Virus record (IMG/VR): IMGVR_UViG_3300010370_000080
Location: 1 to 39,766 of that record
Direction: 5' to 3' (one strand)
DNA: 39,766 bases
DNA from: a virus
Below, piece by piece: positions 7,198-29,438 of this stretch (the first letter of the stretch is position 1; each line of letters starts with the position of its first letter). The notes under the pieces are model-generated. The model searched no databases. It saw only the letters and a list, made by a program, of their open reading frames with translations, and was not told the origin of the DNA. Made by a program: the position numbers and the translations under genes.

Positions 7198-7515
7198 TTA
7201 TCTATTATTTAGAACTCTACTGAATCGTTTTACGACACTATCAAGTTCTGGCGTATCCGACTCTTCTTCACCTCTTTCTACAGTATTGTTTACTGGAGCA
7301 GCTTGTTCTGGTGTAATTTGTTCTTGTTGATCTTGTTGCATCATTTGATCGCCTTGTCCAGGAACTTGGGGTTCGGGCTCAGAATCAATTTCTTTTTGCA
7401 TATCTTTTATCTCATCATCATCTAAATGTAACACATTTTTCTTAACCCACATTTGAGAAAAATAGCGACCAACATATGGATCAACTAATCCTAAAAGTTG
7501 TAATCTATTCTGCCA
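7198..7515 (-). CDS. 20: Portal gp20 C-terminal continuation beyond the in-frame amber
   Basis: Reading on past the amber at 7516-7518 in the same frame gives 105 residues that are plainly portal sequence: WQNRLQLLGLVDPYVGRYFS, then WVKKNVLHLDDDEIKDM, followed by an acidic and Gln-rich tail ending FSRVLNNR. The DPYVGxYFS and WVxKNVLxxxDDEI patterns are the usual end of gp20 in T4-like phages. The first ATG inside is at 7452, which would give an 84-residue fragment starting MWVKKN, but it has no ribosome site and cuts a domain, so I do not treat it as an independent gene. Either the amber is read through or the portal lacks this end. Joined, gp20 would be 555 codons including the amber, a normal family length. 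Confidence 0.8.
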   Translation of the reverse strand, partial: WQNRLQLLGLVDPYVGRYFSQMWVKKNVLHLDDDEIKDMQKEIDSEPEPQVPGQGDQMMQQDQQEQITPEQAAPVNNTVERGEEESDTPELDSVVKRFSRVLNNR

Positions 7516-7518
7516 CTA
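7516..7518 (-). other. In-frame amber codon inside gp20
   Basis: TAG on the minus strand between FTELKEAE and WQNRLQLL. T4 and related portals have a hydrophobic residue (usually Ile or Leu) here, so a TTG to TAG change is one simple origin. The flanking frame is fully intact on both sides. Confidence 0.85.
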
Positions 7519-8862
7519 TTCCGCTTCTTTCAACTCTGTGAAATTATTATCTTTCTTATATTGAAAATAAATTACATCTCTAAATTCTTTCCACTCTTCT
7601 TTAGTACAAATACCTTTTAGAACTAATTGTGTTTCGAGTGCATCATCAAAAACTCTAGAAAATTTGTTTCGTATTTTATCAATAAATTTATTGAATTTTA
7701 ATTCATCTCTAGTAACTTCTGTTGATCTTCCTAAACCTACCAAGCCACCGCTCTGTGCTTCCAGTCTAGAATAAGGAACGTTCATCGACTGATATAATTT
7801 TTTCTGAAAATAAAGTACATCATCCATTTGTCCAAGATTCTGCCCAGCAGGCAGTGTTGTGATTTCTGTGCCTTTACCACCTTCTCTTCTAGGCAACCAA
7901 AAATCTTCAAGCATCGAGAGATGTTTTCTATCATCTCGCAGTTCACCTGTCTGAGCATCATATACCATTTTGTTGCGATACTTGATCATGATATCGCGAA
8001 TATATTGTTCAGCTTTACCTTTAGGAAGATTACCAACGTCAATATAAAATACTCGACGTTCTGGTGCTCTACTGATTCGATAAATTACTGTAGCGTCCTC
8101 GATCATTCTTAATTGATTCAGAGGCTTGATTGCTTTGTGTAAAAAAGAAATCACGAAAGTATTCTTAGCATCCATCAAACCAGAATTAACATTAATCACC
8201 GATTCAGGTGCAATTCTTAAACCCTGATTTGCTGCTGCCGTAAATGATTGTGTAGTAGTGCCTCTGTCATTATAAATGTAATACTCAGCAATCGATTTGA
8301 TTATCTCAGCACCAGTCTTCAGATCTCTTCCTTTTTGAACTTCTCGAACTTTGCGAATCTTTCTTGGATCAATATAACGAAGTTCTTTAATACCTTCTTT
8401 AGGATTCGATTCGTTTACAATAACATGATAATAAATTCTTCCGTCTATGTACCAACGTCTGAATATATCATCCGCTAAATTGGAGAAGTTTAACATTTTT
8501 AAAATGTTATCAAACTCTTCTCTGATTTTTTTCTTGATTGATTCTGGTTGTTTTAAATCATCCAAAATAATCTCAACAACTCTTCCATCTTTGTCGTGAG
8601 CGATGGCTTCATCTACGATTTCTGTTATTGCTTGGTCACACTCGGGATGATTGGACATCTCTCTGTATCGCGTTATAAGTTCCAATTCATTTCGAACTGA
8701 ACCTTCTAAATCGACATATGTACCAAAATGTGCATTCTGTGTTATGGTGACAGCACCATCATCCAGTGCATCAGTCGGAAGAGCGAAAGAAGCCTGTTCA
8801 GGAATTTCTTTCTGAACTATGTCTTTCTGACCGAGTGTGAACCCAAATAGTTTTATTGCCAC
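7516..8862 (-). CDS. 20: Portal vertex protein gp20 (up to an in-frame amber codon)
   Basis: Dodecameric portal of the head, site of prohead initiation, DNA entry, and neck and terminase docking. The 448 residues to the TAG cover most of the family: NAHFGTYVDLEGSVRNELEL and YREMSNHPECDQAITEIVDEAI near residues 44-86, DDIFRRWYIDGRIYYHVI, LRYIDPRKIRKVREVQKG, the YRISRAPERRVFYIDVGNLP stem region and GLGRSTEVTRDELKF. The frame stops at TAG (7516-7518) right after FTELKEAE, yet continues as portal for 105 more residues. The start codon is GTG with AAGGAA upstream. The gene follows a terminator after gp19; no clear late promoter was found between them, so it may rely on partial readthrough. Confidence 0.96.
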   Translation of the reverse strand: MAIKLFGFTLGQKDIVQKEIPEQASFALPTDALDDGAVTITQNAHFGTYVDLEGSVRNELELITRYREMSNHPECDQAITEIVDEAIAHDKDGRVVEIILDDLKQPESIKKKIREEFDNILKMLNFSNLADDIFRRWYIDGRIYYHVIVNESNPKEGIKELRYIDPRKIRKVREVQKGRDLKTGAEIIKSIAEYYIYNDRGTTTQSFTAAANQGLRIAPESVINVNSGLMDAKNTFVISFLHKAIKPLNQLRMIEDATVIYRISRAPERRVFYIDVGNLPKGKAEQYIRDIMIKYRNKMVYDAQTGELRDDRKHLSMLEDFWLPRREGGKGTEITTLPAGQNLGQMDDVLYFQKKLYQSMNVPYSRLEAQSGGLVGLGRSTEVTRDELKFNKFIDKIRNKFSRVFDDALETQLVLKGICTKEEWKEFRDVIYFQYKKDNNFTELKEAE

Positions 8863-11225: not shown

Positions 11226-12866
11226 TTAAAAAGTTGAAGATATATAGCCTCGATTTTTTACCGCTGTCCACAAATCTTTGCCATCGGATTCTTTCTCATC
11301 TTGCAGGCCATCATTTAGTTCTCCTATTGGCAACATTTCTTCTTCAAGTTGTAATTCTCTTTCTTCCAAAAGTCTTTTTCTTACATCAGAATCGGTAAGT
11401 TCTCTAAAATAACTTTGTGCAGTTAACCAAGAAAATAAAACTAAAGTCATAACTACATCGTCATTATTTCCTTCCTCTGCCGCATAAGAATCTTTTTGTC
11501 TTACAAAAGTGTTAAATTCTGCTATGGTATCAAAATCATTAGTAATTAATTTATCGGTTTCTATTAAGGTTTTAAGATTGGCACATCCGATTTTTTTAAC
11601 AGATTTTGATGTTTTTATACCATATGATGCTCCTTTTTTGAATCCAGAAGCAACATGAACACCTTTTACATCGTGACTTTCAATTCTGAATATGTTCTCA
11701 TACTCTAATTCATAATGTAAAATATCAACAACCTGTTGTCCTACATTATTCGTTTCTACTAAAATGAATGCTCTATTATATCTATTTGCTATGTTATAGA
11801 CATATGTAGGAAAAATTAATGGTGATAGTTTATTATCTCTAAATTTTGCAACATGACGATATGGCAATTCTGTAACATCCACTATTGATACTACAGAATA
11901 ATCTCTATTTACACCTTCAGAACAATCGACTATTGCCACATAAGTATGTCCCTTTTTGGGCTCTTCATAAATGTCTAGATACTCTTCTTGTTTGATAGGA
12001 TGCAAGAATGTTAGAGTTTTCAGTTTGAAACCAGGAATAAGGGTTGCATTTGATCCAATGAATTCTGTTTCAAACTCTTGTCTAAACTGTTCCTCACTAG
12101 TATTCCTAATGGTTTCTTCTTTCCATTTCTCATCTCTTCCTGGTACCATGGACCAGTGAACTTCAAATGGAACATATAATGATCTCTTTTCAATTGCATC
12201 TGTCCACATTTTATAGAACTGATTTAGACCATTAGGCGTCGAAACTATAATAACTTTAGTAGTTTTACCAGATGATATAACGGGATAAGTTGCGGTGAAG
12301 AATTCTACTGCCATGTTTTGAGGAACGAATGCAAATTCGTCCAAAAATATCAAGTTATAAGATCCACCACGAACACCCGAAGAACTGGTTGCATATGCTG
12401 AAATTTCTGAACCGTTCTCTAAAACAATATTACCTTTATTCCATTCCAGAATTCCTTGCTGTAACCACAAAGGAAGAAATTCATAAGCATATTTTATTCT
12501 ACCTAAAATATCTCTAGCCAAATCTCCTTTATTAGCCATTATAGCAATTTTATAATCTTCATAAAATAAAACAGACCATAACATAAAACCCGCAACAGTG
12601 GTTGTTTTACCTACCTGTCGAGGCATTTTACATATCGAAAATCGATTAATATGGAAACCTTTGACCATTTCTTCTTGAAATGGCCACATATCAAATGGCA
12701 CCAAACCTTGGTCCACATTTACGATTTTTACATACTTTTTTATGAAGTAAATAGGATCTCTAATACATTTGGTAATCTCAATTAATTGTTCCTGTGTGTA
12801 TTCAATCGCTACACCAGGCTTTTTTAGATTAGGATTACCTAGATATCCGCCCTGATTTGTTATCAC
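11226..12866 (-). CDS. 17: Terminase large subunit gp17 (packaging motor ATPase and nuclease)
   Basis: 546 residues (T4 gp17 is 610). Pumps DNA into the prohead through gp20 and cuts the concatemer. The N-terminal ATPase has an adenine-binding-like WPFQEEM (61-67), Walker A MPRQVGKTT (81-89, Lys87), Walker B LIFLDEF (172-178, Asp176 and catalytic Glu177) and coupling motif STPNG (209-213). The C-terminal RNase H-like nuclease has acidic residues Asp314 (AIVDCSEG), Glu371 (LVETNN) and Asp469/Asp470 (NNDDVV). All key residues are present, so it should be active. The start is GTG, overlapping the Dps-like stop as GTGA, so its translation depends on that gene. Only the unusual upstream neighbour departs from the T4 order. 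Confidence 0.98.
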   Translation of the reverse strand: MITNQGGYLGNPNLKKPGVAIEYTQEQLIEITKCIRDPIYFIKKYVKIVNVDQGLVPFDMWPFQEEMVKGFHINRFSICKMPRQVGKTTTVAGFMLWSVLFYEDYKIAIMANKGDLARDILGRIKYAYEFLPLWLQQGILEWNKGNIVLENGSEISAYATSSSGVRGGSYNLIFLDEFAFVPQNMAVEFFTATYPVISSGKTTKVIIVSTPNGLNQFYKMWTDAIEKRSLYVPFEVHWSMVPGRDEKWKEETIRNTSEEQFRQEFETEFIGSNATLIPGFKLKTLTFLHPIKQEEYLDIYEEPKKGHTYVAIVDCSEGVNRDYSVVSIVDVTELPYRHVAKFRDNKLSPLIFPTYVYNIANRYNRAFILVETNNVGQQVVDILHYELEYENIFRIESHDVKGVHVASGFKKGASYGIKTSKSVKKIGCANLKTLIETDKLITNDFDTIAEFNTFVRQKDSYAAEEGNNDDVVMTLVLFSWLTAQSYFRELTDSDVRKRLLEERELQLEEEMLPIGELNDGLQDEKESDGKDLWTAVKNRGYISSTF

Positions 12867-13297
12867 TTAATTAAACTTTTTAACATCCAAGCTTGTTTTT
12901 GGTGTGCATCCAACAGATCTTGTAAGAAATTTCCTATGGCAGGTTCATCAGCGGCATCGGCTGCAACGATGCCTGCACGAAGATGAAAAATCATTTTATC
13001 ATTCGATTGCATCAAATCTCTAAGCATGGAAACTGCATCTGGAATATTTTCATTTTCAGAAACATCACTTAGCTCATGAATTCTAGTTAAGTTGGTTGGA
13101 GCATAAGAACCAAGCATACGAATTTTTTCGGCAATTAAATCCGTCTGATTCCAAACCGCAGTGTAAAAATCACCCAAAAAACCATGATACTGAACGAAAT
13201 CTGGTCCTTCAATATTCCAATGAAATGAATGTGCTTTAAAATATAGTCCAAAATTTGTACCCAAAATAGTTTTCATTTGTTCAATTAAAGTTTCCAT
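12863..13297 (-). CDS. Dps-like ferritin-family protein
   Basis: 144 residues with the Dps/ferritin four-helix pattern. Dps proteins form 12-mers that oxidise and store iron and protect DNA. The signature spans residues 18-60: FKAHSFHW (His26), EGPDFVQYHGFLGDF (His38, Asp43) and NQTDLIAEKIRMLG (Asp53, Glu57), followed by SYAP. Compared with E. coli Dps ferroxidase residues (His51, His63, Asp67, Asp78, Glu82), four align; the fifth acid is shifted by one residue (Gly42-Asp43). The C-terminal helices contain ADEPAIGNFLQDLLDAHQKQ. There is no Lys-rich N-terminal tail for DNA binding. The gene sits between gp16 and gp17, 3 bases from the gp16 stop and overlapping the gp17 GTG, so it is made with the packaging motor. 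Family call is strong; its role is unknown. Confidence 0.9.
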   Translation of the reverse strand: METLIEQMKTILGTNFGLYFKAHSFHWNIEGPDFVQYHGFLGDFYTAVWNQTDLIAEKIRMLGSYAPTNLTRIHELSDVSENENIPDAVSMLRDLMQSNDKMIFHLRAGIVAADAADEPAIGNFLQDLLDAHQKQAWMLKSLIK

Positions 13298-13300
13298 TTA

Positions 13301-13687
13301 TTATCCTATTTGTTTTATTTGTTTGATTAAATCTGCGGTTGATCCAAGAAAAACTGCTTTGTCAACGTTCACAACAGACTTTTCTTTAATCGGTGTAAGA
13401 TCTTTCTTCTTCTTTTGTAATTCTATTAGGTCTTTGTTTATATCAGACATATTTTTTATTAGTGTGGCAGCTACTTCGTATGCTCTTGGATGATCGGTTG
13501 CTGCGGCAACTTGTAGAATATTATCAACTGCTATTTTTCCTTTTTCTGCCAATTCTCTAATATTTTGTCTGGCAAATTCAAAATCCGTATCGACTTGCGA
13601 ATCAATAACTTCTGGTAAAGAAGATTCTTCTTCTTTGAGTGGTTGTATATCAAAAATCTCAGAAAGTTTTTCGTCTATTTTTTTCAT
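13301..13687 (-). CDS. 16: Terminase small subunit gp16
   Basis: 128 residues (T4 gp16 is 164). Recognises or presents the DNA end and regulates gp17. The central region aligns by eye with T4 gp16: TDHPRAYEVAATLIKNMSD followed by INKDLIELQKKKKD corresponds to the T4 segment with SPRHMEVFATLMGQM and LKLHKDMKD, and the C-terminal NVDKAVFLGSTADLI corresponds to T4 NATVFMGSPTELM. The N-terminus is acidic and shorter than in T4. Its start overlaps the gp15 stop by ATGA, coupling it to the neck genes. The length suggests a compact ring-forming subunit without long tails. Confidence 0.92.
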   Translation of the reverse strand: MKKIDEKLSEIFDIQPLKEEESSLPEVIDSQVDTDFEFARQNIRELAEKGKIAVDNILQVAAATDHPRAYEVAATLIKNMSDINKDLIELQKKKKDLTPIKEKSVVNVDKAVFLGSTADLIKQIKQIG

Positions 13688-14670
13688 GATATTGTGTCCT
13701 TAAAACCATAATCATCATCTGGAGATGATGATAAAGGACTAACTTCTGTTATCAATGAAATGCTTTTAGATGGATTCAGATCCACATCATTAATCGTATA
13801 TTTCGCATTTGTATAATCACCAATCACTATATCACCTTCTTCCAAATTTTCAGAAAGATTCGAAACTAATAATGTTCCCAAACTATTGTTGGAAAAATAT
13901 GTTATTGTTCCTGTCTTATTTTTATTTAAAACTCTAATGGTTTCGCCTGTGGTATAAACACCATTACCAGAATTCATATCAACAAAAACTTTTTGTATTA
14001 CTGTATTTCGATCATCAACATACACATTCGTGTTTGCTCTGCTAATCAACTTATCGACTCCGGACTTCACTGAAGGAAATATCCATCCTCTTAATGTGAA
14101 TGTTAAATTCCATATGACTAATCTCGTTGTGGAAAAATCGCCTTCATACTCTATTTGCGGCGAAACTGAATCTAGTGTTACTGGAATATCATATTTTCTT
14201 CCTAATGTAGGAATCAAGTCAACAGTAACAGTGAAATCAGGAGTAAAGAAAGGCAATATTTGTTCCAGTATTTGAGTTCCATCTTCCTGATTTCTTACGA
14301 AAATGCTTAAATCGAATTCGAAATTGTATGGAATAGGAGAATACTGCGAGATAATTACATTATTACCATCATTCACAGCAAAGTTTTTTCCTAATGTATT
14401 CATCTTTCTTGTTGAATCATATGATATGCCAACAAGATCAAATGCTATTCTAGGAACATATACATTAATAGATTTTGTTAAAGTTGGATCAGAACTCAAA
14501 CGAGTTATATATTTTTCTTTTGATCCATAGGATAGAGGAACTATTGTTCTTTCGTATTCTTCTGTTCCATCTTTACTATGTCTAACCAATACAATATCAT
14601 TAAAGATTGTTCCAAATGCGACAATCATTTTTCTTATAATACGATTATAAAAATGTGAATTACCTAACAT
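13684..14670 (-). CDS. 15: Tail terminator / sheath stabiliser gp15
   Basis: 328 residues, longer than T4 gp15 (272). Caps the tail and joins it to the neck. Agreement with T4 gp15 is visible throughout: SHFYNRIIRKMIVAFGTIFN, VPLSYGSKEKYITRL, YVPRIAFDLVGISYDS, ISQYSPIPYNFEFDLSIF, EQILPFFTPDF and WNLTFTLRGWIFP (about residues 187-199). Residues about 235-295 form an extra beta-rich segment (GVYTTGETIRV, GTITYFS, GTLLVSNL, EEGDIVIGDY) not seen in T4, similar in style to insertions in gp13 and gp14. The ATG overlaps the gp14 stop (TAATG) and the end overlaps gp16 (ATGA), so the neck and packaging genes are translated as a coupled series. Confidence 0.95.
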   Translation of the reverse strand: MLGNSHFYNRIIRKMIVAFGTIFNDIVLVRHSKDGTEEYERTIVPLSYGSKEKYITRLSSDPTLTKSINVYVPRIAFDLVGISYDSTRKMNTLGKNFAVNDGNNVIISQYSPIPYNFEFDLSIFVRNQEDGTQILEQILPFFTPDFTVTVDLIPTLGRKYDIPVTLDSVSPQIEYEGDFSTTRLVIWNLTFTLRGWIFPSVKSGVDKLISRANTNVYVDDRNTVIQKVFVDMNSGNGVYTTGETIRVLNKNKTGTITYFSNNSLGTLLVSNLSENLEEGDIVIGDYTNAKYTINDVDLNPSKSISLITEVSPLSSSPDDDYGFKDTIS

Positions 14671-15575
14671 TATGCCTCACCAAAAGGATTTTTTTCTGTC
14701 CAGTCTAATAGATTATCACCTTCATTTTCAACAAGTTTATTATCAGATATGTCTTCGAAAACATTTCCATCTACTTGAGTTGAAGTGTCTGCTAATGTAA
14801 TACCTCTTAATGCACCACTGGTACTACCACGAATATTGCCGGTTGAAAATGTTCCCTGTACTCTTATGACATTTAATTGTGTGTGAGGCTCATATGAATA
14901 GACTATAGCTTGTGCATTAGCTGTTTCTAATGATGATCCCTGATATACTATTTCACCAGGAACAAAATAACCCGTACTCATTGGAAAAACTATATTATTT
15001 GCTAGAACCAATTTCGTTCTTCTATATTCATCAAAAGCTTGATCATCAACTTCTTGCACACCAGTTGAAATGATCTCTTCGCTGAATACATATTGTTTCA
15101 TTTTTAAGGCATAAACATATACGTTTCCACCGCGTCCTCTACCTAATGTATAGAACATCGCTTGATCGTTTTCATGTTCAACAAAAGTAATTTCGAAGAA
15201 ATTTTGTACTAGTGGTATGTAAATTAAATCGCCTTCTCTAGGTCTACCTAAAGGAACAGTATATTTGAATCTTCTTCGTGACATTAACATAGTAACTTCA
15301 TCTCGAATTTCTAAACCAAATTTTGAAATGAAATCTCCTTCACCATCCATTCCCGTCACATTTTCCATATACATTTCAATAGAATATGCTGTTCGATATT
15401 CTTTTAATGGATCTTCACCATACAACATATCCACTTCATCGCGACTTGTTCTAGGTAAATAATAAACATCCATGCCATGTATCTGCATGGCTTCGATGAC
15501 TAAATCCTCAACTAGTAATTGCTCACTAGTTACTTGTTGTTGAGGAAAATTATTAAAGTAAAAATTGGTGGGCAT
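14670..15575 (-). CDS. 14: Neck protein gp14
   Basis: 301 residues (T4 gp14 is 256). Part of the neck/head-completion complex with gp13. Family features include the N-terminal NFYFNNFPQQQ and LVEDLVIEAMQIHGMDVYYLPR (about 20-42), EYRTAYSIEMYMENVTGMDG, FGLEIRDEVTMLMSRRRF and PREGDLIYIPL followed by FFEITFVEH; the C-terminus ends DWTEKNPFGEA. Residues about 200-265 are an accessory beta domain (GYFVPGEIVYQGSS, AIVYSYEPHTQLNVIRVQG, GNIRGSTSGA) resembling repeats in phage tail proteins. It follows gp13 by one base and overlaps gp15 as TAATG. Confidence 0.95.
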   Translation of the reverse strand: MPTNFYFNNFPQQQVTSEQLLVEDLVIEAMQIHGMDVYYLPRTSRDEVDMLYGEDPLKEYRTAYSIEMYMENVTGMDGEGDFISKFGLEIRDEVTMLMSRRRFKYTVPLGRPREGDLIYIPLVQNFFEITFVEHENDQAMFYTLGRGRGGNVYVYALKMKQYVFSEEIISTGVQEVDDQAFDEYRRTKLVLANNIVFPMSTGYFVPGEIVYQGSSLETANAQAIVYSYEPHTQLNVIRVQGTFSTGNIRGSTSGALRGITLADTSTQVDGNVFEDISDNKLVENEGDNLLDWTEKNPFGEA

Positions 15576-15576
15576 T

Positions 15577-16530
15577 TTAACCTATGAATATCTCGCTTGG
15601 CATAGAAAGAGTGCTTTTTGCATCTTCTTCTAAAGATTTTATTTCCTCTTTAGCTTCTTCCATTATTCTAGGACCATCTAGTGTTACACCACCAGGCATT
15701 TGAATGCCTGCAAACTTACTTAGATTCGTGCCCCATTGATATTTAATTTTTGCTGTAGCATACGATTTTAAAAATCTATCATTCCAAACATCAGGAAATC
15801 CAGTTATTGTCATCGAATTTCCATTTGACGAGGCTACAAAAGTCGAACTGACATTCAACGAGGTATCACTATCAATTGAAATGACTCTTTTGGATTCGTT
15901 AGCAATAACAATTTCATCGTTTATTGATACTTGAGTTGTGAATGATGTTCCTGTTCCGATCACAGTATTTGAAGAGGAACTTACATTTGCTGTTCCAGAT
16001 AATGTTGTATTATCAGGAGAAATATATCTATAACATTCGATGATGATATAGTCATCAACTTTGAGATCGCGAGTCCAATCTATATCCAGATGTAGACGAT
16101 CCATTTTACGATTAAAACGTATCTGAGGTGTACCGGAAAATAATAAATTCAATGTTCGAATATGTTGCATGGTAATTTCATATGAAACATATGAAACGGA
16201 AGTAAAGTCATATAAGTCGTGCAATCTGAGTTGGTATCTCAAATCGAACATATTAACAGATGAATTTGATTGATCGAATGGTAAAATACCAACTATAAAT
16301 TGAATTGCATCTGGGCAGGGAATCCATTGTCTATCCATATCAGCTTGTGTTATCTTGTGTTTAAGATACATTTGCTGAGTTCCATCGTAGTGATAATCAC
16401 CAAAAAACGCTAAGGCATCATCAATTCTATCTTCCACTTGATCATCATCTACATTGATTTGAATTACTGGATGACCTAAACGGCGTAAGCAATAGTCTTT
16501 AAACTGCGCTCTAGTTGAAATTTTTGCCAT
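15577..16530 (-). CDS. 13: Neck protein gp13
   Basis: 317 residues (T4 gp13 is 309). Head-completion neck protein that binds the portal after packaging. Typical features: STRAQFKDYCLRRLGHPVIQ and INVDDDQVEDRIDDALAFF (about 25-43), DYHYDG, and the C-terminal DVWNDRFLKSYATAKIKYQW followed by GTNLSKFAGIQMPGGV and GPRIMEEAKEEI. Residues about 173-243 form a Ser/Thr-rich beta insertion (GTANVSSSSNTVIGTGTSF, INDEIVIANESKRVISID, SLNVSSTF) of a kind usually found in fibre and baseplate proteins. A CATAAATA late-type box 24 bases upstream suggests it begins the neck-packaging transcript. The conserved core on both sides of the insert is intact. Confidence 0.95.
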   Translation of the reverse strand: MAKISTRAQFKDYCLRRLGHPVIQINVDDDQVEDRIDDALAFFGDYHYDGTQQMYLKHKITQADMDRQWIPCPDAIQFIVGILPFDQSNSSVNMFDLRYQLRLHDLYDFTSVSYVSYEITMQHIRTLNLLFSGTPQIRFNRKMDRLHLDIDWTRDLKVDDYIIIECYRYISPDNTTLSGTANVSSSSNTVIGTGTSFTTQVSINDEIVIANESKRVISIDSDTSLNVSSTFVASSNGNSMTITGFPDVWNDRFLKSYATAKIKYQWGTNLSKFAGIQMPGGVTLDGPRIMEEAKEEIKSLEEDAKSTLSMPSEIFIG

Positions 16531-16553
16531 ATGATACCTATATTTTTATTAGA

Positions 16554-16561
16554 TATTTATG
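16554..16561 (-). promoter_or_regulatory. Late-promoter-like box CATAAATA before gp13
   Basis: CATAAATA on the minus strand, one base from the late consensus, 24 bases before the gp13 ATG and overlapping the stop of the glycosyltransferase-methyltransferase gene. Confidence 0.5.
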
Positions 16562-17843
16562 CTTTCTTAAAACACATTAAATTATTCACAAACCATCCCA
16601 TATGATATCCTTCTTTACAAAAATCCACACATTTTGTTGTGGTCATTTCATCATAAATCAAACCACTGTCCTCAAATTTTTGTTTCCAATATGATTTAGG
16701 TCTGCAATTTATATGCATAACACCGCCTTGACCTGGAACAGCAGCGGTCCACATGAGTAAACCACCATTTTTTATGGTGCTACAAACAGACTCGACTATT
16801 TTATCTGAATATTGTGAATCTATGTGTTCGGCAACTTCAAAACAAATGACCAATTCAGATTGATATTTTTGCTTTAAATTCAATAGATCATCTTGTATAA
16901 GATAATTTTTTCCATCAACCCTTTTATCAATATCTACTCCTACACATTTTATTCCGTTTTCATTGAGGGAATATGTGTGAATTCCTGGTCCACAACCCAA
17001 ATCTAAAGCTTCAGTTACATTTAATTCTTGCTTAATCCATTTCGCCAATCTATCAGAAAAAGGTTTCTCTTCTTTATATACCTGCTCATAATCAATTTTT
17101 TCTGAAACATTTGGATAGTATTTTTTGTTGAAATTGGATTCTGTTCTGTTTGAATTGATTTTGTACCATCCTTTATCATTATGAATATCGAGTATAGAAT
17201 CAAAAAATTCTTCATACATGGAAGCAACTCTTTCCAAAGAAAAGTTGTTTATTGCCCAATTTCTACAATTATTAGGATCAATTTTATGAATATTTTTTGC
17301 TGCCCAAACAAAATGATCAAAGGTTCGGCAACGATAACCTGTTACTCCATGAATATTATTTTCAGTAAATGAGCCCCAATCTGTTGTTATAGTTGGCGTT
17401 CCTGAAAATAGACATTCTACTTGAACACCACCAAAAGGTTCAACATAGAAACTGGCAACAAAAGCGCCTTTAGCTCTCGACATAAGTTTTTTTCTTTTCT
17501 CGACATCAGCATAACCAACAAATTCCACATGATCGGGAACTTTATCATAGCCACAATCTTTTAAATTGTTTTGTCCCGCAACGACAAGTTTAGCGCCTAT
17601 TTCTTTTGTTGTCTGTATTGCTACATGAATTCCTTTTCCTTCATAGACTCTTCCCAAAAACAAAAAATAATCATCTTTTTGTTCCGAAAATTCAAAATCG
17701 TCTGGATCGAAATAGTTTGGAATTACTGTATCATACCAACTTTGCTTACATCTTCCAACAGCATCTAAACCATAGTAAGCATGATAAATGGCGTATGACT
17801 CGAATATTTTATACTTAGCCCAATGCCCACCAGCATAACCTAT
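16557..17843 (-). pseudogene. GT4 glycosyltransferase (C-terminal half) fused to a SAM methyltransferase, separated from its N-terminus by two stops
   Basis: The frame after the double stop runs 428 residues. It opens with [20 protein letters not shown], continues [19 protein letters not shown] and reaches the GT4 donor-site motif EPFGGVQVE (E-x7-E) and [13 protein letters not shown] linker follows, then a class I SAM-dependent methyltransferase: [12 protein letters not shown] (motif I), GVDIDKRV (motif II), QDDLLNL and [10 protein letters not shown], ending near [15 protein letters not shown] retaining sugar transfer followed by methylation of the sugar or acceptor is the likely original chemistry. 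The first possible internal start is a TTG at 17663, which would lose half the glycosyltransferase; I do not support it as a start. The methyltransferase could only be made by internal initiation or readthrough. Confidence 0.8.
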
Positions 17844-17852
17844 TCAAGGTTA
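17844..17852 (-). other. Two in-frame stop codons (TAA, CCT, TGA) inside the glycosyltransferase
   Basis: Minus-strand codons read Val, TAA, Pro, TGA, Ile-Gly-Tyr. Related phage glycosyltransferases commonly have V-E-P-G-I-G-Y here, so GAA to TAA and GGA to TGA, two G-to-T changes six bases apart, would explain both. No frameshift is present on either side. Confidence 0.8.
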
Positions 17853-18239
17853 AACACAGAGCAAATCTGGGTGAGCATCGCAAACAGGTCTGTGTCCTGA
17901 ACCCCAAAAAGGTAAAATGAAATCATCTTTTCTTTTTCTCTTTTGTATTTCTTCTATGGAGTTTTTATAGAATGTTTGATATGCATGATCACTTGCGTCA
18001 AACTTGAAAAAGTTTTTTCTCCAATCATAACTACCATATGCTATTTTCAGATCTTTATTTGTTGTAACAGTAACATGTTCAGTGCATTCCAAATCGGATT
18101 CTTCATGACCATAATGTATTACTTCATGACCTCTTTGAGTCATCATCTTACCAAATTTAAATACTTTTTGCGTATATGCACATGCAACATATTCTTTATT
18201 TGTAACAGTATGTGGAAGACCTAGAATGTGGAATCTCAT
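17850..18239 (-). pseudogene. GT4 glycosyltransferase, N-terminal fragment
   Basis: 129 residues before TAA. The start [21 protein letters not shown] with [18 protein letters not shown] fits the N-terminal Rossmann half of a GT4-type glycosyltransferase, where the acceptor usually binds; it ends [17 protein letters not shown]. The frame is the same as the downstream portion, so the two were one gene of about 560 codons. The ATG at 18239 is preferred because the protein then begins like related transferases; an in-frame ATG at 18269 adds ten residues and lies 25 bases after a late-type box, so it remains possible. Alone this fragment lacks the donor-binding lobe and is unlikely to be active. 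Confidence 0.75.
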
Positions 18240-18293
18240 AATTTTTGTCCATGTTAAATTGATATTCACCGAAAAAGTGCGTCATTTCATTGG

Positions 18294-18301
18294 TATTTAT
18301 T
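18294..18301 (-). promoter_or_regulatory. Late-promoter-like box AATAAATA before the glycosyltransferase
   Basis: AATAAATA on the minus strand in the 70-base gap upstream of the glycosyltransferase, 25 bases before the ATG at 18269 and 55 before that at 18239. It lies within a small dyad, GGTA-ATAAA-TACC. Confidence 0.4.
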
Positions 18302-18338
18302 ACCATCAAAATAATATGAAAATGAAGCGACGATTATT

Positions 18339-18758
18339 TCAAATTTTCAATTCAATCCAATTTAAACTATCTTCGACCCATTGATACAATTTACCATCAT
18401 CAGGAAAAGGTATTGGTGGACGAAACCAACAAATTTCTTCGTCAAATGTCCAAGACGGAAATCCTTGTTGTTCTACCCAAGCTTCTTTATTTCTTGCCTG
18501 TTTTTGTTGTTTTTCTTCCTCAGTCATTGGTTCTGTGTGCCAAACATCTTTAACAATATTACCCACAAATTCGTAAGTCGAAGTTAGATTTTTTTCATAT
18601 ACTCCAAGCATCGGCTCGGGCACTCTTTCAAACCAAGCATAATCGCTGGGTAAATTGTTCAAATCTACTCCTGGATTTGTTTCAATGAAATTATCCAAAA
18701 GAATAGGATGTCCTACAGGACTATTATCTTCAATTTTGATAACTAAAGTATATTCCAT
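18339..18758 (-). CDS. Probable tail-fibre assembly chaperone-like protein
   Basis: 139 residues. The C-terminal third carries the pattern FPSWTFDEEICWFRPPIPFP followed by DDGKLYQWVEDSLNWIEL (about 102-137), which I associate with small proteins near marine phage fibre genes; short Trp/Pro-rich endings of this kind also occur in fibre-assembly chaperones. The middle (about 75-98) is a charged helix with EEEKQQKQARNKEAW. The N-terminus begins with a beta strand YTLVIKIEDNSPVGHP. It lies immediately downstream of the glycine-rich adhesin, with GGAGAATAAAA as ribosome site. The chaperone role is inference from location and sequence style; a minor virion protein is the alternative. Confidence 0.65.
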   Translation of the reverse strand: MEYTLVIKIEDNSPVGHPILLDNFIETNPGVDLNNLPSDYAWFERVPEPMLGVYEKNLTSTYEFVGNIVKDVWHTEPMTEEEKQQKQARNKEAWVEQQGFPSWTFDEEICWFRPPIPFPDDGKLYQWVEDSLNWIELKI

Positions 18759-18775
18759 TTTTATTCTCCATCAAT

Positions 18776-20037
18776 CTAGGCTGCATTATTTGGGTAACTT
18801 CTTCCAGGTCCCCAAATTATCCTAACCGCACCACCGCCCGAGACGGGAGTGCCACTGAGACTTATTCCTCCATACATACCACCCGCCCCTGCACCATATT
18901 GGCCACCTCTACCTCTAGCATCAGCTGGATTAGGACTTATGTAAGCATAAACACGTTCTCCACTGGTACCACCCGATCCACCAGTGGCTGCTGTACCTCT
19001 ATAACCAGAGGCTCCATTTTGCTCAAACTGTAGACTTTGACCAGCAGTACCACTGGCGCCAGCTCCTAAAATTCCCACACCGCCACCACCACCGCCAACA
19101 GTTGAAGAACCACCACCACCGCCACCACCACCACTACCATTGGTAGAAATATTATCGGCGCCGCCCGCCTCAACTGCTCCCCTTCCACCGTTGCCAGAAT
19201 ATCCGCCAGCACCACCACCGCCACCCGACATACCCGTTACTTGATTTGGATAAGTGTTTGGAGGCATTCCGGGTAGTACCCCACCATTACCGCCACCTTC
19301 ACCAACATTATCTGTTCTTGCGCCACCCGCGCCTCTGAGTAGAATTGTGGCGCCTCTTGAGATATAGCTGCTTTGGCCTTTTGCTGCATCTGTAAAATAA
19401 TAGTCGAATGAATTAACTTCTGGGCTTGTTCGTGCTGCTCCGACAAATACTGTCAATACTTCTCCAGGAGTTACTGCAATACTACTTGTCCATCTGAGTG
19501 ATCCACCCTGCCCTCCAGCACCACCACCGCTACTTGTTTTAATACCCGCATGTCCTGAACCAACTGCTACTGCACTTATAGCTGTTACTCCAGCAGGCAC
19601 CGTGAAAGAATATGTTCCCGCTGTTGTATAACTGCTTTCTCCAGATGGTATATCGAGTATGGTTACTGTTCCGCTTGTTGCGACAAGTTCTCCGGATTGA
19701 GAATTAATTCTTGCTTCTATCCTAAAAGATTCAGTTTCAGTTAATCCATCATTGACGAGATTAATATTGAATGATGTATTCCAACTTCCTTGTGCTGCAC
19801 TATATGCAAGAGTTTGTGTCCAACCTTGTGTAACAGGATTCGCAGGGCTGCTGAAATCAGCATCACCAACTGTGCCCGTCACAGTTACGATTTTAAAATA
19901 AATTGTAATCGGACCTGTATTGAAAGCACTGAATGCTACACTAACAGATTGTGCTTCATATTGACTGGTTGTTCCTAGTGGAGAGCCAAAAGAATATGTT
20001 TGTAATCTATTAATGAATGGATTTATTAAAAAAAGAC

Positions 20038-20041
<4 letters not shown>
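18776..20041 (-). CDS. Glycine-rich tail adhesin with Calx-beta-like N-terminal domain
   Basis: 421 residues. Residues about 25-130 look like a Calx-beta or similar beta-sandwich ([42 protein letters not shown]). Then [20 protein letters not shown] begins a glycine-rich module found in phage fibres, continuing as glycine runs up to nine long (about 165-400) and ending [16 protein letters not shown]. The poly-glycine loops recall polyglycine II sandwich adhesins such as gp38 of phage S16, which bind outer-membrane proteins at the fibre tip. The ATG overlaps the collagen-like gene by ATGA. It stops at TAG, the only ordinary amber stop in the window, with TAA four codons later. Host-binding role is inferred. 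Confidence 0.8.
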
Positions 20042-20775
<734 letters not shown>

Positions 20776-20784
20776 TAATACCTC

Positions 20785-23700
20785 TTATCTCGTAAAATGT
20801 GGTTGCACAGGAGGACTAAAATTACCAGTATATCTAGCATAACCATGCGTTATTCTTAAATCGTCCATATATCCACTGTAAACTGATGATCCTAATGATG
20901 TGCCTGCTGATCCTATAACAGGTCTGTATAGTCCTGTAATATAAGAGTTTGTATCTGCATATGTGGCACCGACTTGTATTCCATCAACAAATAAACGTGT
21001 ACTTGATGAGAATCTAGTCAATGCAATATGTATCCATTGATTATTAGGCAGAGTTGAACCCGCAATTCTATCCGCACTGTTTGTAAAATATGTTATAACA
21101 CCAGCATTTATATACAATACGGGATAAAGACCTTGCGTACCTGTTGGTCTATAATCGATCAGAATGCCTGTTTGACTTGATGCCGTTGCTGAATTTAACC
21201 AAAATTCAATCGTAAAATCACCTGTGCCAAAACTTGTGGCTATATTGTTCGCTGCAATACCTGATGAAGAAAGAATATAATCACCAGTTCCATCAAAAAA
21301 TATTGATTGATTTCCGAATTTTGATCTGAAAGTTGTCACTTTAGCATCACCCACTGTTACCATATTATTCTTGTATGTTGTATCATAATTTGTTAATGCT
21401 GTTGATGAGTGATCCAATTGTAGAATCGTATTTGGTGTTGGTTGAGTGACGCGCATCGTAGGAATAAAGCTTGTGTTTGCTTTATATAAAGATTCTCCTC
21501 TAATAACTTTTAAATTTGAAATATATATCGTGCTGTAAGCAGGCGATGCCGTATCCCATCGTCTTCCAATGTACCATGCAGCCGATGGCATACTGGGTGG
21601 AGAGTAAGTAGACTGTGTTGGATTTACTGTTATATCAACTCCATTTAAAAATATCCTAGGTCCAACTGTTCCGAAGCCATCATATGAAATAGCGAGGTGA
21701 TTCCAAGAACCCATGTCGATTTGTCTGTTTCCGCTATTTCCTTGCCACGCAGTACCGGTATAATATCCGAAATAGGGAAATCTCGCACTTGTAGCAACTG
21801 GGGTGGGCCCGCCCGCGCCACTTATCGTGCCACTTAAAGGAGCAGCTATCGTAAAGATAGTGAATTGTATGGTTGAGGCAAGTGCACCCCCATAAATATA
21901 AGATGTACTACCAAATCTTGGTAAATATACCCATGCTTCCACTGTAAATGGAGCATATCCCAAACTAGTATATGTACTATTAATTGTTGGATTTTTTGTT
22001 AGTTGATCCAAACTGTCATCAGTAACAGTGTTTTCAATGAGGACACTTCCACCATGTATCGCCGGATCATATGATACGCCAATTTCTCGTGTATAACCAA
22101 AAGGATTAACACCAGATAAAGTGGGATTACCATTAACAGCAAAGTTTTTGCCTGTGATTTCCAAGACAGTATTACCTGCCTGTGCAATCAATACTTGAGT
22201 GTTTGAATTTGATGTCAGCGGTTCTCCAGGAACGACAAAGTTTCCGGTGTATATTATATCATTTTTATTATATCTAAAGTTGCTTATTAGTCCATTAAAC
22301 AAAGCAGATGTGGAAACATAACCACCTATGGCTAAAGTTGTTCCATTATAATTATTTGTATCTATTATATCTCCGCTTGTTCCAACTGTCGTATCCTTTG
22401 AACCATTAATGAATATATTTGTGATATTCGAAGATGAACTGTGTGTTAATGCTAAATGATGCCATGTATTTTTTGTTATTGTTGAACCTGTACTAGTGTA
22501 AATAGTATTATTATTAGCACGAATTGAAACTTTATCATTGATGATACTCATCGTCAATGTTTCTGTGTGTCCATTTGTTATGCCAAATGGTGCAGTGCTT
22601 ATTTGAAATATACCATTATTACTTCCGACTCTATTGTATACCCATGTTTCTATTGTGAAGCTATTTGCGCCAATAACCAGATTTGCATTATTACAAGATA
22701 TGAAGTCACTGCCCGTGAAGTTGATAGAGTAATTCTTTGGAGTTTTTGTTTGTGGACCAAAAGGACCAAAGGGAAGCATTGCAGTACCCTCAGATACCGT
22801 TGCGATTGGAATTCTATTTGGTCCTTGATCTTCAAATGTTCCTGTATCTGTGAACATCAATAATGTTGTATTTGCTATGGGCACTGGTGTGTCTGTTGGA
22901 GGAGTAAAGCTTTGTGTGTATACTACATTTCCATTAACAACTCTTAAACCATGAACGTGTCCTCTATAAGAACCCGCTCCAGCCGATTGCCACCTTCCAA
23001 TAGAAACATTGCCTGTCGTTCCGGATTGATTAGTTAATATTGTAGTTCCAGTAAGTGTTTGTTGTATTCCATTAATGTACATTCTAAGAACACCGGAATT
23101 CGCAGTAACAGCATAATGTGTCCAAGTATTTAATTGTATTGTTGTATTACCTATAGCACGTTTTTCTGCACCATCAAACCAAAAGAAAACTGGTGTTCCA
23201 TTACTATTATAAGGACCAATACTCCAATAATTAATGCCTCCAGTGGCATGCATTTGTCCAAATACAGTGCCAGCAATTGTTGATGTTGTATGTGCAGTTG
23301 GATACAACCAACATTCGATTGTAAATGTTGATGTAGAAGTTAGAGTTAATATGCTTCCAGCGGTAGATGCTCCTGTGGTTATCCATTCTGTACCGCTAAA
23401 AAATGCAGACCAAGCTGAAGGAACGAATGGTGAAAATGAACCAGAAGATGTTCCTGGTTGACCACCTACCGATCTAATAATCGAATCATAACCCGAAGAA
23501 TCAACATGTCTTGTTGTTCTATCTGGAATAGATGATTGTAAAGTTAAAAGAGTGGTATTCGATATATTAGCTAAAGGTTCTTTTGGAGGAATAAACGGTC
23601 TGGTATATAAAGCAGTTCCTTTAATGATACGAAGATTTGATAATCTACCAGTAAGAAGCTGTATATTGGAAAATGCGCCTATTGTTAGTCCTGAAGATAT

Positions 23701-26693: not shown

Positions 26694-29438
<2,745 letters not shown>

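Follow-up and report, generated by a model that had tools for sequence, protein, structure and literature searches.

A Single In-Frame TAG in the Portal Gene of a T4-Like Virus Contig Is Probably an Error of the Assembled Consensus

The DNA analyzed here (the window) is a whole virus record of 39,766 bases that carries T4-like myovirus head, neck, and tail genes, nearly all of them on the minus strand. The large terminases of the nearest isolates (e.g., pelagiphage Mosig and cyanophages) share only about 54% identity with its own. The window contains a T4 gp20-type portal gene on the minus strand (positions 7198 to 8862; 554 codons plus a stop). The gp20 portal is the DNA gateway, and its gene is essential. 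In the record as given, this gene is interrupted at codon 449 by an in-frame TAG, also on the minus strand (positions 7516 to 7518, read as 7518-7516). The frame opens with a GTG at 8862, runs for 448 codons up to FTELKEAE, reaches the TAG, and continues for 105 sense codons (WQNRLQLLGLVDPYVG...) to a TAA at 7200-7198. The preliminary description had stated that the portal frame resumes after the TAG for 105 codons without a frameshift, and this was confirmed both by the frame itself and by the Pfam matches of the two pieces. The TAG is the only codon that disrupts the gene, which is conserved in all other respects.

Both pieces belong to PF07230, the family profile that covers the wing, stem, clip, and crown. 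The Portal_T4 matches are consecutive, spanning profile positions 3-386 (544 bits) before the TAG and 389-433 (36 bits) after it. Likewise, gp20 entries of the PDB were matched by the part before the stop (E = 7.8e-107) as well as by the part after it (E = 2.5e-4). The window portal is therefore of the same family as the T4 gp20 portal (PDB 3JA7 and 6UZC; PF07230) over its whole length and on both sides of the TAG. It lacks the single uninterrupted frame seen in its orthologues, which describes the state of this copy and not of the family. The portal is a member of a known family, and no new mechanism is needed here. By mapping, the TAG corresponds to residue 462 of T4 gp20, the crown domain of which is given as residues 451-524 in PMC4493910. 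A portal ending at codon 449 would accordingly lose almost the entire crown. The downstream portal part (7198 to 7515, minus strand) consists of a conserved crown-domain region (codons 450-495) followed by a variable C-terminal tail.

We compared the portal with IMG/VR relatives, the identity of which to the window portal reached 96%. The preliminary description had proposed such a comparison at the interrupted codon, and none of the relatives shares the TAG. The aligned codon encodes leucine in 91 and isoleucine in 7 of 98 relatives (rows that include a few overlapping pieces of one contig). The closest relatives have CTT at this site, while the commonest leucine codon overall is TTG (55/98), from which TAG is reached by one substitution. 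Intact portals of 554 amino acids with a full-length C terminus were found in four orthologues (L002-L005), and the portal of the close relative L002 is in the same register as the window frame. Among 25 relatives, 355 columns of the N-terminal part are invariant, and the window departs from none of them; over codons 450-495, it differs from L002 by 10 synonymous and 2 nonsynonymous base changes. The intact N-terminal columns and the ratio of changes after the TAG give no sign of an older lesion, and they bear out the earlier remark that the frame around the TAG shows no decay. From these comparisons, the portal protein is constrained on both sides of the TAG, with purifying selection continuing past it, and the lesion would be either very young or not real. 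Among the IMG/VR relatives and in a further scan with a 28-mer from the tail region, we found no other portal copy of the same species. A scan of bacterial-genome contigs for this site yielded 52 pattern matches, but no portal is encoded at any of them.

We then considered whether the window could encode a viable portal that ends at residue 448 and lacks the crown domain. The portal of phi29 is described in PMC4493910 as lacking most of the crown domain, so such portals can exist. However, all relatives aligned across the site read through it, close ones such as L002-L005 have the full C terminus, and the region after the stop is under purifying selection. Furthermore, there is no credible restart nearby, since the first in-frame ATG (7452) has no obvious ribosome-binding site. 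The passages found on amber mutants of T4 gene 20 describe no truncation at the position of the window's TAG. We regard a naturally crownless portal as the least probable of the readings considered here.

Another possibility is that the TAG is translated, either through amber suppression or through programmed readthrough by a host or phage tRNA, which would yield a full-length portal, perhaps together with a crownless short form. The frame and the purifying selection indeed persist past the TAG, and most of the genome lies outside the 39.8-kb record, so that a suppressor tRNA could be encoded there or in the host. On the other hand, the stop occurs in none of the 98 relatives, which led us to reject a conserved readthrough site, that is, one kept in orthologues. 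A stimulatory RNA structure at the TAG was also rejected, as the fold over 183 nt was not distinguished from shuffled sequences (z = 0.27). The portal TAG is moreover the only in-frame TAG in 33 coding sequences totaling 12,681 codons, in which glutamine is written CAG or CAA 415 times, and TAG still terminates another gene in the window (ending at 18776).

General reassignment of TAG, as in genetic code 15, was rejected on the basis of this single in-frame TAG and of the gene that ends with TAG. In code 15, used by some crAss-like phages, TAG encodes glutamine, and the portal is among the proteins detected in them (PMC9523058). Like those phages, the window has a late structural gene with a TAG in frame. 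Unlike them, it has only one TAG per 12,681 codons, it uses TAG as a terminator, and the relatives examined have no suppressor tRNA. In one published case, the standard code would split a single protein into six (PMC9523058). Here, the late genes do not carry multiple in-frame TAGs, and reading TAG as glutamine does not reveal denser coding, the coding fraction being already 0.96. Reassignment of TGA was rejected as well, TGA being the terminator of nine genes.

The preliminary description had also suggested looking for a tRNA with a CUA anticodon. None was found in the window, in which no tRNA genes were detected at all and which represents part of the genome, nor in four large tRNA arrays of related phages (L198, L199, L200, and L201). 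These arrays comprise 23-27 tRNA genes each and come close to covering all the amino acids, but no amber suppressor is among them. Overall, a programmed or genome-wide recoding mechanism is not supported. We consider suppression or readthrough of the portal TAG improbable, and more so its specific form, in which a T4-like lineage recently gained a suppressed or leaky portal amber and would make full-length and crownless portals in each infected cell.

The portal is not the only interrupted gene of the contig. A fusion of a group 1 glycosyltransferase and a methyltransferase (positions 16557 to 18269, minus strand; Pfam Glycos_transf_1 and Methyltransf_23) carries a TAA (17852-17850) and a TGA (17846-17844) two codons apart (together 17844 to 17852, minus strand). 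The degenerate DNA pattern used to recover 65 relatives of this glycosyltransferase did not fix the changed bases, and all 65 have glutamate and glycine at the two positions. They include L107, in which the whole aligned frame is free of stops. L107 belongs to the same species as the window: over 10,901 bp, aligned without gaps to window positions 12788-23688, the two differ at 16 sites (99.85% identity). Three of these 16 differences (17826, 17846, and 17852) lie within 27 nt; two of them create the stops, the third is synonymous, and L107 is normal at all three. The chance that any three of 16 differences would fall so close together is about 0.009. In addition, at each of the three sites the window repeats the base that comes just before it on the coding strand, a three-for-three pattern that is weak on its own (about 1 in 27 if a single direction is fixed). 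The buildup of errors toward read ends has been attributed to phasing and prephasing (PMC4787001), and the copies of the preceding base could reflect a lagging (phasing) signal near read ends, as in late-cycle Illumina errors. Taken together, the clustering, the double stop, the universal conservation of the two residues, and the base-copy pattern point most naturally to a local consensus error, and the glycosyltransferase stops are probably of this kind. Judged against L107 and the 65 relatives, the contig that carries the portal TAG therefore has error-like sites elsewhere, at 17826, 17846, and 17852. In the same alignments, those of many relatives stop near residues 390-414, short of the C-terminal methyltransferase domain. 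The C-terminal part of the glycosyltransferase had no match in 13 records, most of which bear a portal.

We next compared the number of stops in the window with that in its relatives. No interior stop was found in 179,198 aligned codons of structural genes from the relatives (about 200,000 in all), and the 19 asterisks in the glycosyltransferase alignments were all located near natural gene ends. In contrast, the corresponding genes of the window contain three stops within 5,351 codons (Fisher P = 1.7e-5; P = 0.026 for the portal stop alone against the relatives), P values that serve as a guide only, because they assume independent codons in sequences that are related and because the window was chosen for its portal stop. 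By this count, the contig is unusual for its stops, which fall both in an accessory gene and in an essential one. A random substitution in the compared genes would create a stop in about 4.5% of cases, so that some tens of consensus errors would give one or more stops.

Based on these comparisons, we propose that the portal TAG is probably an error at the level of a base, introduced into the consensus assembled for a metagenomic contig of thin coverage. The absence of the TAG from all 98 relatives, the conservation of the gene on both sides, and the stop cluster that L107 does not have lead to this reading. The phage itself would probably encode a normal gp20 portal of full length, in which codon 449 specifies leucine (or isoleucine). 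The thin coverage of the contig, a technical cause of the same kind for the portal stop, and the ancestral residue in this species are elements that we infer. As we found no sequence of the same species that covers the portal codon, the portal error itself is deduced rather than seen. With regard to known Illumina error profiles (PMC4787001 and PMC3334598), the window resembles low-coverage consensus errors in having isolated or clustered substitutions without indels as well as copies of the preceding base. The portal change itself is a lone substitution that bears no diagnostic signature: its neighbors are T and G, so that it is not a copy of the preceding base as in the glycosyltransferase cluster, and nothing else anomalous was seen close by. 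The portal stop may thus have arisen separately, for example through a real mutation.

Such a mutation would be a very recent nonsense change in a defective or minority genome, packaged for instance with the help of intact coinfecting genomes and caught by the assembler. A single change from the commonest leucine codon is all that it requires, the remaining frame is as intact and constrained as a very recent event predicts, and the lack of a phasing-like signature at the portal would be expected. However, a lethal allele should be rare, and a consensus that carries it would therefore also imply low coverage; moreover, with two more technical-looking stops in the same contig, a technical cause is simpler. 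We accordingly rank the consensus error first, as the probable explanation, and a real dead-end nonsense variant second, as a possible but unlikely one. Of the four options raised in the preliminary description, the assembly or sequencing error, which had been listed last, or the equivalent recent null is thus favored, whereas suppression or readthrough and a viable truncation are unlikely.

Two further origins of the stops were rejected. Oxidative damage, by which all three stops would be G-to-T changes, fits the glycosyltransferase pair but fails at the portal, where the relatives have leucine. An origin from a local repeat was considered since a further GAATAG lies 11 nt downstream, but with 20 occurrences in the window against 23 expected, the hexamer is not enriched over chance.

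Most likely, the phage itself does not have the portal TAG. If it were real, the toleration of an amber codon by an essential portal gene would imply natural suppression in the host or a portal made in two forms. It was the comparison with a contig of the same species that exposed the second and clearer error-like cluster, and stops in single metagenomic contigs should be compared in this way before recoding is inferred from them.

Two other observations were made in the window. Putative tail-fiber proteins with collagen-like Gly-Ala-Thr-Gly repeats are encoded on the minus strand at positions 20038-20775 and 26694-29435. Finally, a 148-bp stretch near the end of L107 (window positions 12911-13058) contains 6 of the 16 differences between the two contigs, 5 of which are synonymous; it resembles true strain variation or a short tract acquired by recombination.
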